NCBI GenBank assembly: GCA_026981985.1 | Contig: JALSHZ010000142.1 | Span: forward strand, 1 to 38,335 | DNA: 38,335 nucleotides | DNA from: Gammaproteobacteria bacterium | GTDB lineage: Bacteria; Pseudomonadota; Gammaproteobacteria; UWMA-0217 | Direction: 5' to 3' | Shown: positions 29,413 through 36,278 of the stretch, piece by piece | Layout of the letters: every line of letters starts with the position of its first letter | How positions within the stretch are numbered: the first letter of the stretch is position 1 | The notes under the pieces: model-generated | Told to the model about the DNA's origin: nothing | The model's input: the letters and a program-made list of their open reading frames with translations, nothing else | Database searches by the model: none | Translations under genes and position numbers: made by a program

Positions 29413-30181
29413 TCTGTTCGCGGGACTGGGGGCGGCAACGCTATCGGCATTGCAGCGTACCGGGCGTGGCTTCATTTTTCTGCTGCGCACATTGGCGGGC
29501 GTACCGCTGTTGCTGGCGCGCCCCGGGTTGTTGGTCAAGGAGCTCTTCAGTACCGGTGTACAGTCCTTGCTGATCATTCTTGTTTCCGGGCTGTTTGTTG
29601 GCATGGTGCTGGGGTTGCAGGGCTATGTCACCCTGTCGAAATTCGGTGCCGAGGAGTCGCTTGGCGTGATGGTCGCGCTGTCGCTGGTACGCGAGCTGGG
29701 ACCGGTGGTGACTGCGTTGCTGTTTGCCGGGCGTGCTGGCTCGGCGCTGACGGCCGAGATCGGCTTGATGAAGAGCACCGAGCAACTGTCGGGCATGGAA
29801 ATGATGGCGGTGGATCCGATTCATCGCGTGATCGCGCCACGTCTGACGGCTGGTTTTATCGCCATGCCGATACTGGCGGCGTTGTTCAGCGCGGTTGGAA
29901 TACTGGGTGGCTATCTCGTCGGCGTCGGGTTGCTCGGCGTCGATGCGGGATCGTTCATGTCGCAGATGCAGGCCGGGGTGGATTGGCGCATCGATGTGTT
30001 GAATGGTGTTATCAAAAGCATCGCATTTGGCTTCGTCGTCACCTGGATTGCCGTGTTCGAAGGTTACGATGCCGTGCCCACTTCGGAAGGTGTCAGCCAG
30101 GCCACGACGCGCACGGTGGTGCATTCTGCGCTGGCGGTGCTGGCGCTTGATTTCGTGCTGACCGGACTGATGTTTACCTGA
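29405..30181 (+). CDS. mlaE: Mla phospholipid transport permease
   Basis: A 258-residue inner-membrane permease. It has an N-terminal interfacial helix and about five membrane segments. Characteristic stretches are [56 protein letters not shown] and [21 protein letters not shown]. The ATG at 29405 has a perfect GGAGGT site and overlaps the mlaF stop by eight bases, so the longer upstream frame is rejected. A mini-element lies between it and mlaD. Confidence 0.95.
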
Positions 30182-30212
30182 TTGTCCGGCAGGCGGTATT
30201 GATAGTTTCAGC

Positions 30213-30250
30213 GTAACTACTCAGCATAGGTCCGTAAGCTGAGCAGTTGC
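30213..30250. mobile_element. 38-bp IS66-like mini-element with 8-bp target duplication
   Basis: The 116-base mlaE-mlaD gap contains a 38-base segment beginning GTAACTACTCAGC and ending GCTGAGCAGTTGC. The ends are inverted repeats pairing at nearly all of 13 positions. It is flanked by perfect direct repeats GTTTCAGC at 30205-30212 and 30251-30258. GTAA termini and 8-bp duplications are IS66-family traits. The element would fold as a ~13-bp hairpin with a 12-base loop inside the mla transcript. It is related to the element at 35979-36167. Confidence 0.75.
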
Positions 30251-30297
30251 GTTTCAGCAGTTGTTAATCTAACTGAATACATACTTTGGATGGTGAT

Positions 30298-30759
30298 ATG
30301 CGCACATCACGTACACAGGAAATTTGGGTGGGAATCTTTGTTGCATTGGGCATGCTGGCACTGTTCGTGCTGGCCTTGCGCGTCAGCAACTACAGCAGCT
30401 ACACCAATGGCAACCAGTATCATGTCTATGTCTATTTCGAGAACATAGGCGGGCTCAAGGTGCGTTCGCCGGTGACCTTGTCCGGTGTCACCGTCGGCCG
30501 CGTCACCAGTATCGACTACGATCCGGACAGCCTGCAAGCAAAAGTCGAACTGGGTATCGAGGAGAAATACAACTTTCTCTCGACCGACACGGCTGCGAGC
30601 ATCTATACCGCGGGTTTGCTGGGAGAACAGTACATCGCCCTGGAGCCTGGTGCCGAAGATGAGACGTTGGCAGAGGGGGACGAGATTATTCATTCCCAAT
30701 CGGCAATGGTGCTGGAAGAGTTGATCGGTCAGTTCCTCGTTAAAATGAGTTCAAAATAG
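30298..30759 (+). CDS. mlaD: MCE-domain protein MlaD
   Basis: A 153-residue protein anchored by an N-terminal helix (EIWVGIFVALGMLALFVLAL). It carries one MCE domain (~40-115: VYVYFENIGGLKVRSPVTLS and GVTVGRVTSI). Hexamers form the periplasmic lipid channel on MlaFE. The C-terminus is shorter than in E. coli MlaD (183). The ATG at 30298 has a purine-rich GGATGGTG upstream; a TTG four codons earlier is also open. About 36 bases separate it from mlaC. Confidence 0.93.
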   Translation: MRTSRTQEIWVGIFVALGMLALFVLALRVSNYSSYTNGNQYHVYVYFENIGGLKVRSPVTLSGVTVGRVTSIDYDPDSLQAKVELGIEEKYNFLSTDTAASIYTAGLLGEQYIALEPGAEDETLAEGDEIIHSQSAMVLEELIGQFLVKMSSK

Positions 30760-35372: not shown

Positions 35373-35972
35373 ATGCCTGCCACTGCTGCAGAAAGAGATG
35401 CAGAACCTCACAGCTACGGTGAATACCTCAGCTGGCCCGAGGATCTGCGCTATGAGCTGATCGATGGGACCGCCTACTTGATGTCGCCGGCGCCTTCACT
35501 CGATCATCAGGAGATCGCGGGTGAAATTTACTTTCAGCTACGCCAATCCCTCAAGGGTTCGAATTGCCACCCCTATATCGCCCCGCTCGATGTGCGTCTG
35601 CCAAAGGCCGATGAGGCTGATGAGGATATCGATACGGTATTGCAACCCGACGTTTTGGTGGTCTGCGATGAGACGATGCTGGATTCGAAAGGGGTACGAG
35701 GTGCGCCCGATTTTGTGGTCGAGGTGGTTTCGCCGGGTACTGCGTTTCATGACCACCAGCGCAAGCGGGCTATATATGAGCGTGCAGGAGTAAAGGAATA
35801 CTGGCTCGTCGATCCGGTCGAGCGTTTTATTACGATTTATCGGCTCGGCGAGGCGGGCTATGGCAAACCCGATATTCAGCCGTTGGAGGCGGCGACCGCC
35901 GTCGCTGTGCTGCCCAAGGTTGTGATCGAGTGGGATCACTTGCTCCAACGTCTCCGCCCAGTCGCGGAATGA
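35373..35972 (+). CDS. Uma2-family (DUF820) putative restriction endonuclease-fold protein, copy 1
   Basis: A 199-residue protein of the PD-(D/E)XK superfamily. Opening segments are SYGEYLSWPEDLRYELIDG and YLMSPAPSLDHQEIAGEIYF. Putative catalytic residues are Asp93 (QPDVLVVCD), Glu117 (FVVEVVSPGT) and Lys131 (HQRKRAIYERAGVKEYW). The family is abundant in cyanobacteria and some Gammaproteobacteria; its biological role is uncertain. A CGGAGATAGCC ribosome-binding region precedes the ATG. It shares near-identical ends with copy 2 but a diverged middle. A MITE has inserted exactly at its stop codon. Confidence 0.85.
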   Translation: MPATAAERDAEPHSYGEYLSWPEDLRYELIDGTAYLMSPAPSLDHQEIAGEIYFQLRQSLKGSNCHPYIAPLDVRLPKADEADEDIDTVLQPDVLVVCDETMLDSKGVRGAPDFVVEVVSPGTAFHDHQRKRAIYERAGVKEYWLVDPVERFITIYRLGEAGYGKPDIQPLEAATAVAVLPKVVIEWDHLLQRLRPVAE

Positions 35973-35978
35973 CGCATA

Positions 35979-36167
35979 GTAACTATTCAGCACAGTCCCG
36001 TAACTGCTCAGATTGCCCCCGTTTTGCGTCAAATCAAGGCGGAAGCGCGCACGACTCCAAGGATGGAGGAGGTAGGGCGACGCAGGATGCTAAAGCCGAG
36101 TTTACAAGTGTAAATGAGCACTTCCAACGCAGAGTTGGCGCACACAGGGGGTAAGCTGAGCAGTTAC
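35979..36167. mobile_element. 189-bp IS66-like MITE with 8-bp target duplication
   Basis: This element begins GTAACTATTCAGC and ends GCTGAGCAGTTAC, inverted ends matching at 11 of 13 positions. It is flanked by perfect direct repeats GACGCATA at 35971-35978 and 36168-36175. A second inward copy of the end (GTAACTGCTCAG at 36000) matches the right end over ~22 bases, including a run of C opposite a run of G. No open reading frame of note is inside. GTAA ends with 8-bp duplications indicate IS66-type transposition by an enzyme supplied elsewhere. The duplication starts within the TGA of Uma2 copy 1. Confidence 0.75.
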
Positions 36168-36278
36168 GACGCATATTGCTCGTCAGTCAATAGTAGGGTG
36201 GGCGCTGCCCTGGGTGCCTACCGACAAGGCCAGTGAGAGTGCGCACGAAATACGCCCTGTCCCCGCCAGCAGTGTCAT

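Follow-up and report, generated by a model that had tools for sequence, protein, structure and literature searches.

A 38-bp element in the mlaE-mlaD spacer of a gammaproteobacterium as a probable excision scar of an IS66-type MITE

In a 38,335-nucleotide stretch of DNA from a gammaproteobacterium (the whole of which we refer to as the window), the spacer between mlaE and mlaD, two genes of a lipid-transport operon, holds a 38-bp inverted-repeat element bracketed by a perfect 8-bp target duplication (TSD). An insertion sequence (IS) of IS66 type and MITEs in the same genome have matching ends, and the 38 bp fit a longer MITE from which the stretch between two GTAA repeats has been removed. Judging from these comparisons, the element is probably a host-made scar, of the type known as 'nearly precise excision', of an IS66-type MITE. 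We thus read it best as neither a functional transposon nor a regulator of mla. The scar belongs to an already known kind of remnant, and is itself newly found.

The element and the family of its ends

The site reads GTTTCAGC-(GTAACTACTCAGC ATAGGTCC GTAA GCTGAGCAGTTGC)-GTTTCAGC, with the element itself at 30213-30250 and the TSDs extending it to 30205-30258 (Table 1); the sequence and coordinates are exactly those that an earlier note on this DNA had given. The spacer and GTAA together make up the interior (ATAGGTCCGTAA, 30226-30237), and the right end is slightly degraded, terminating in GTTGC, not GTTAC. By chance, an 8-bp flanking repeat would be perfect with a probability of about 1.5e-5. 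In the 3.35-Mb genome the complete 38-bp pattern is found once (reversed-pattern controls gave 0 matches), and since the 24 bp of interior plus right end occur in a single copy even with up to 3 mismatches allowed, the 38-bp sequence has not multiplied. Like a MITE, the element is non-coding and has terminal inverted repeats and a TSD, but it is shorter than the roughly 50-500 bp of MITEs and is not multi-copy, whereas the putative parents (121-250 bp) are both long enough and multi-copy.

Table 1. Features of the window that bear on the 38-bp element
Feature	Position	Strand	Remarks
mlaE-mlaD intergenic gap, 116 nt	30182-30297	+	mlaE ends at 30181, mlaD starts at 30298; 70 nt without the element and one TSD copy
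Left TSD copy, 8 bp, GTTTCAGC	30205-30212		The genus-mate gap holds one GTTTCAGC
Hairpin in the predicted mla mRNA, 40 nt	30212-30251	+	-17.8 kcal/mol, without a U-tract
Left terminal inverted repeat, 13 bp, GTAACTACTCAGC	30213-30225	+	Same as both ends of the genome's IS66-type IS
Spacer, 8 bp, ATAGGTCC	30226-30233	+	Matches the spacer between outer and inner left ends of parent MITEs (ACAGGCCC/ACAGTCCC)
GTAA, putative deletion junction	30234-30237	+	4-bp direct repeat common to the parent's inner left end and right end
Right terminal inverted repeat, 13 bp, GCTGAGCAGTTGC	30238-30250	-	Reverse complement GCAACTGCTCAGC
Right TSD copy, 8 bp, GTTTCAGC	30251-30258		Perfect match to the left copy
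189-bp double-ended MITE, parent type	35979-36167	+	GTAA-to-GTAA deletion would leave exactly 38 bp
Its outer left end	35979-35991
Its spacer, ACAGTCCC	35992-35999
Its inner left end	from 36000
Its second GTAA	36151-36154
Its right end	36155-36167
Its TSD, GACGCATA	35971-35978		Perfect; second copy at 36168-36175

The ends are far from rare. Allowing up to one mismatch, the 13-bp end has 112 + 90 matches in the genome against 1 + 4 for the reversed control; the search for 13-bp ends with 8-bp flanking repeats that the earlier note had proposed thus returned about 200 end copies, TSD-bearing MITEs among them. According to the sequence read around the matches, the 38-bp element shares these ends with an IS66-type IS and with MITE families of 121-250 bp that have 8-bp TSDs. 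Families A (beginning GTAACTACTCAGCTCACCAC) and B (containing CTTACCCCC) are about 121 bp long, and in 'double-ended' MITEs of 142-250 bp one end is enlarged by a second end copy and a spacer of 8 or 18 bp. A perfect 8-bp flanking duplication is present in 22 distinct paired elements, and in none does it extend to 9 bp. One MITE (L105:751-959, contig C132) carries its left end five times in tandem with a 22-bp period (GTAACT...CAGC plus a 9-bp spacer), which suggests stepwise end duplication. Separately, a repeat of about 1 kb (start GTAACTACTCAGCGCCCC / GTAACTACTCAGCGCCCCAGCCCGCTGCGC; copies at seven loci, 84-97% alike) has an IS66-type end at one side, and no partner end was found nearby.

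Copies of the IS break the assembly about 110-125 bp into each end, appearing as split contig ends of two types, GTAACTACTCAGCGCAAAAAAACC with 10 distinct flanks and GTAACTACTCAGCCCATTAAATC with 16. In three cases the two types pair by an identical 8-bp flank (AAATAAAA, AAACAAAC and AATGGATT; about 0.002 expected), so they represent the two ends of one IS with 8-bp TSDs. Read inward, the GTAACTACTCAGCCCATTAAATC end encodes FCRIRGYLSTCRKQGLSASDALALVFAGKLPHFDLMG. In tblastn this peptide matches best, at 70.6% identity, an IS66 remnant of 960 bp carried by a Marinobacter plasmid; the remnant has the ends GTAACTATTCAG/CTGAATAATTAC and the TSD AAAACTTT. At the DNA level, NSSKPPSSD lies in one frame with the rest of this remnant, and we take NSSKPPSSD and KVQQKISGCFRSMEGAKIFCR in that frame to be stretches of the IS66 protein TnpC. 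The IS-end peptide also matches a Pseudanabaena sequence whose annotation reads IS66 family transposase. In plasmid BLAST searches the left end of the IS had a single match, in Marinobacter, and the right end none at the DNA level; it is the protein search with the right-end peptide that assigns the IS to the IS66 family. Pfam found no domain on the two short IS-end peptides, and the IS66 transposase profile (PF03050) had no match in the genome assembly; the body of the transposase is missing from it, presumably collapsed at contig ends. The link to IS66 drawn in the earlier note is borne out, as an IS with identical 13-bp ends encodes the C-terminus of an IS66-type transposase and makes 8-bp TSDs.

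IS66 elements produce 8-bp duplications and have GTAA(GCG) ends (PMC11946415, PMC12888890), their terminal repeats being 20-30 bp long and starting with GTAAGCG (PMC11946415). The 38-bp element agrees in its 8-bp TSD and in its GTAA ends, which match those of an IS66-type IS, but these ends are the 13-bp GTAACTACTCAGC and not 20-30-bp GTAAGCG repeats. As the ends are of the GTAACT subtype, which is also found on the Marinobacter remnant, we call the element 'IS66-type' and not a classic IS66 member.

Origin of the 38 bp

We set the 38 bp against all internal deletions that 26 TSD-bearing parents could undergo, taking both orientations of each. The best-fitting deletion runs from GTAA to GTAA in a 142-bp double-ended MITE (L089) and is identical at 35 of 38 positions, the others being three transitions; given these three differences, this MITE is the best fit and not an established parent copy. 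Random 12-bp middles reached the same score in 1 of 2000 cases, and with the GTAA microhomology, junction positions 21-25 tie. Deletion between internal GTAA repeats, the origin suggested in the earlier note, is thus the best fit among all deletions of the 26 candidates. The '36-kb element' that had been named there as the source holds as a type of source but not in its size: it corresponds to the 189-bp MITE near coordinate 36 kb (Table 1), which looks intact and is the sole MITE in the window.

Three further micro-elements are present elsewhere in the genome, of 37 bp (C16; TSD CCTCAGAC, perfect), 38 bp (C103; TSD matching at 7/8 positions) and 45 bp (C36; 7/8). All three fit equally well, each by deletion in a parent of its own at a microhomology of 1-4 bp. 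Elements of 56-86 bp, searched for as intermediates, were not found in the genome, so element sizes are bimodal. The 38-bp element corresponds to what defines an excision scar, namely a longer element minus the stretch between direct repeats, with the TSD retained.

In the course of events that we propose, an IS66-type MITE of 142-189 bp with a doubled left end would have landed in the mlaE-mlaD spacer, duplicating GTTTCAGC. An error of host DNA copying, slippage between the two GTAA direct repeats that flank the hairpin-forming body of the MITE, may then have removed the interior, and both terminal repeats, the 8-bp spacer and the TSD would have stayed behind as the 38-bp scar. We infer both the order, with insertion first and shrinkage in place afterwards, and slippage as the cause from the arrangement of the sequence.

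That the element is instead a chance palindrome, a REP-type repeat or an assembly artefact is hardly credible. Short palindromes with similar ends and no duplication do exist in other genomes, but the perfect 8-bp TSD, the 200-copy family of ends and the best-fit deletion of known MITEs all speak against such a reading, as does the site, which occurs once and is well away from the ends of its 38-kb contig.

The mlaE-mlaD gap in relatives and predicted effects

By Pfam, the genes around the gap encode an MlaF-like ABC ATPase, MlaE (E 1.5e-73), MlaD (E 9.5e-24), MlaC and an MlaB-like STAS protein. A stable hairpin (-17.8 kcal/mol) in a long gap just upstream of mlaD could be read as a regulatory structure conserved among mla operons and flanked by a repeat by coincidence, a finding that the earlier note had named as one that would overturn its proposal. 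We consider this very improbable. Among 26 related genomes with a readable mlaE-mlaD gap, none has an IS66-type end in it, so the hairpin is not a conserved feature of mla, and in 25 of them the gap is at most 46 nt long. Furthermore, the ends belong to a transposable family found throughout the genome, and the signature of a terminator is absent.

The remaining relative, a genus-mate whose mlaE is 82% identical to that in the window, has a gap of 208 nt with a single GTTTCAGC directly after mlaE. This lone copy, which lies outside an inserted repeat, fits an unoccupied target, although divergence elsewhere in the gap prevents a clean alignment to an empty site; the comparison with relatives advised in the earlier note thus yielded the expected single copy but not the full alignment. 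The inserted repeat (L033:2365-2526) is a different, hairpin-rich interspersed one with about 43 matches in the genome of the genus-mate, and the mlaE-mlaD gap seems tolerant of insertions in this genus.

The hairpin has no U-tract, was not called in a scan for terminators, and stops about 46 nt short of the start codon of mlaD, so any effect of the element on the level of MlaD, and with it the change in the MlaD:MlaE ratio that the earlier note had thought possible, is probably small. Beyond the added hairpin and 46 nt, the scar would be expected to have little influence on mla expression.

Short elements in other bacteria and known remnants

We scanned contigs of one genome per species for the same ends 25-55 bp apart and obtained at least 121 matches in at least 119 stretches. 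Among the matches listed, the 8-mers on the two sides differ at no more than 2 positions in 38 of 121 (about 0.5 expected), and 12 have perfect 8-bp TSDs, in Gammaproteobacteria, Desulfobacterota, Magnetococcales and Clostridia among others. Elements of 27-51 bp with 8-bp TSDs thus recur in distant bacteria, which is more unusual than the 38-bp scar itself. Palindromes that match the end pattern and have no TSD, several of them exactly 31 bp long, were left out of the scar count. Such 31-bp palindromes, with two IS66-type ends, occur in several Gammaproteobacteria (five loci and others), and TSD-less short palindromes with these ends may be something else. In a Clostridia assembly (G371, L275-L294) a 32-bp palindrome, GTAACTGTTCAGAACCTGTTCTGAACAGTTAC, is present about 75 times; many copies are followed by GCATCGGGCGATGC on one side, and some have 8-bp duplications.

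In three unrelated assemblies the short elements form multi-copy sets of one size, 27-28 bp (G373), 45-46 bp (G369) and 51 bp (G374), each copy with a different 8-bp TSD. It is possible that such short forms, which amount to about two 12-13-bp ends, are themselves mobile. That IS66-type transposases move elements of 27-51 bp, the one studied here included, is a proposal to which we give only a small probability; if true, hardly any known transposable unit would be smaller. However, same-size copies as proof of mobility lose weight, since all three assemblies also hold MITEs of 120-145 bp whose internal repeats would give those short sizes; one 135-bp MITE, for example, starts with the 28-bp unit and finishes in the same AGTTAC. 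With such longer MITEs present, parallel deletion between fixed direct repeats (AGTTAC...AGTTAC) suffices to explain the sets.

For the 38-bp element, the corresponding reading is that an IS66-type transposase moved it as a minimal pair of ends, so that it was inserted at its present size. It retains both ends needed for recognition, yet it is single-copy in its own genome, one of its ends is mutated (GTTGC), and the four micro-elements of this genome are all different, each matching its own deletion in a longer MITE. In addition, the two ends of so short a DNA loop should be hard to bring together. We therefore hold transposition at 38 bp to be unlikely, and prefer a scar left by the shrinkage of a longer MITE.

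In nearly precise excision, the interior of a transposon is lost between short direct repeats near its inverted-repeat ends, and the end stubs and the TSD stay. This process has been studied with Tn10 derivatives, in a Tn10-related assay (PMC12524634). The 38-bp scar resembles the Tn10 remnants in the loss of its interior between direct repeats and in the end stubs and TSD that were kept, but it would derive from a 142-189-bp MITE and not from a multi-kb transposon, the repeats are of 1-4 bp, and several natural cases are found in one genome. With IS66-family MITEs the element shares non-coding sequence, 8-bp TSDs and GTAA-starting ends in common with an IS66-type IS of the same genome; in contrast to them it is single-copy, and at 38 bp it falls short of the 50-500 bp range that is usual for prokaryotic MITEs (PMC10969869). 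Classic IS66 ends (PMC11946415) differ again in being GTAAGCG and not GTAACTACTCAGC.

Degraded QMITE1 copies of Coxiella burnetii, 39-400 bp long (PMC10969869, PMC5896051), are likewise MITE copies that have shrunk, to about 39 bp, with ends better preserved than interiors; however, their shrinkage is presented as gradual decay and not as one deletion between direct repeats. QMITE1 was rejected as the same family because its TSDs are 2-3 nt (PMC5896051). REPs, REPINs and cyanobacterial small dispersed repeats (Elhai 2008, as cited in PMC3116915) are also very short, palindromic or dispersed, and intergenic, but they are not defined by IS66 ends and 8-bp TSDs, and REPINs are tied to RAYT transposases. 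Our search of open-access literature brought up no description of IS66-type MITE scars of such a size.

The 38-bp scar illustrates how a MITE within an operon can shrink to a near-invisible stub, one that nonetheless changes both the spacing and the structure of the mRNA. Doubled ends, which bring their own direct repeats, could be what drives this shrinkage. Such stubs fall under the usual size limits for MITEs and are probably unannotated. Should some turn out to be mobile, the lower size limit for a transposable unit would be set by them.
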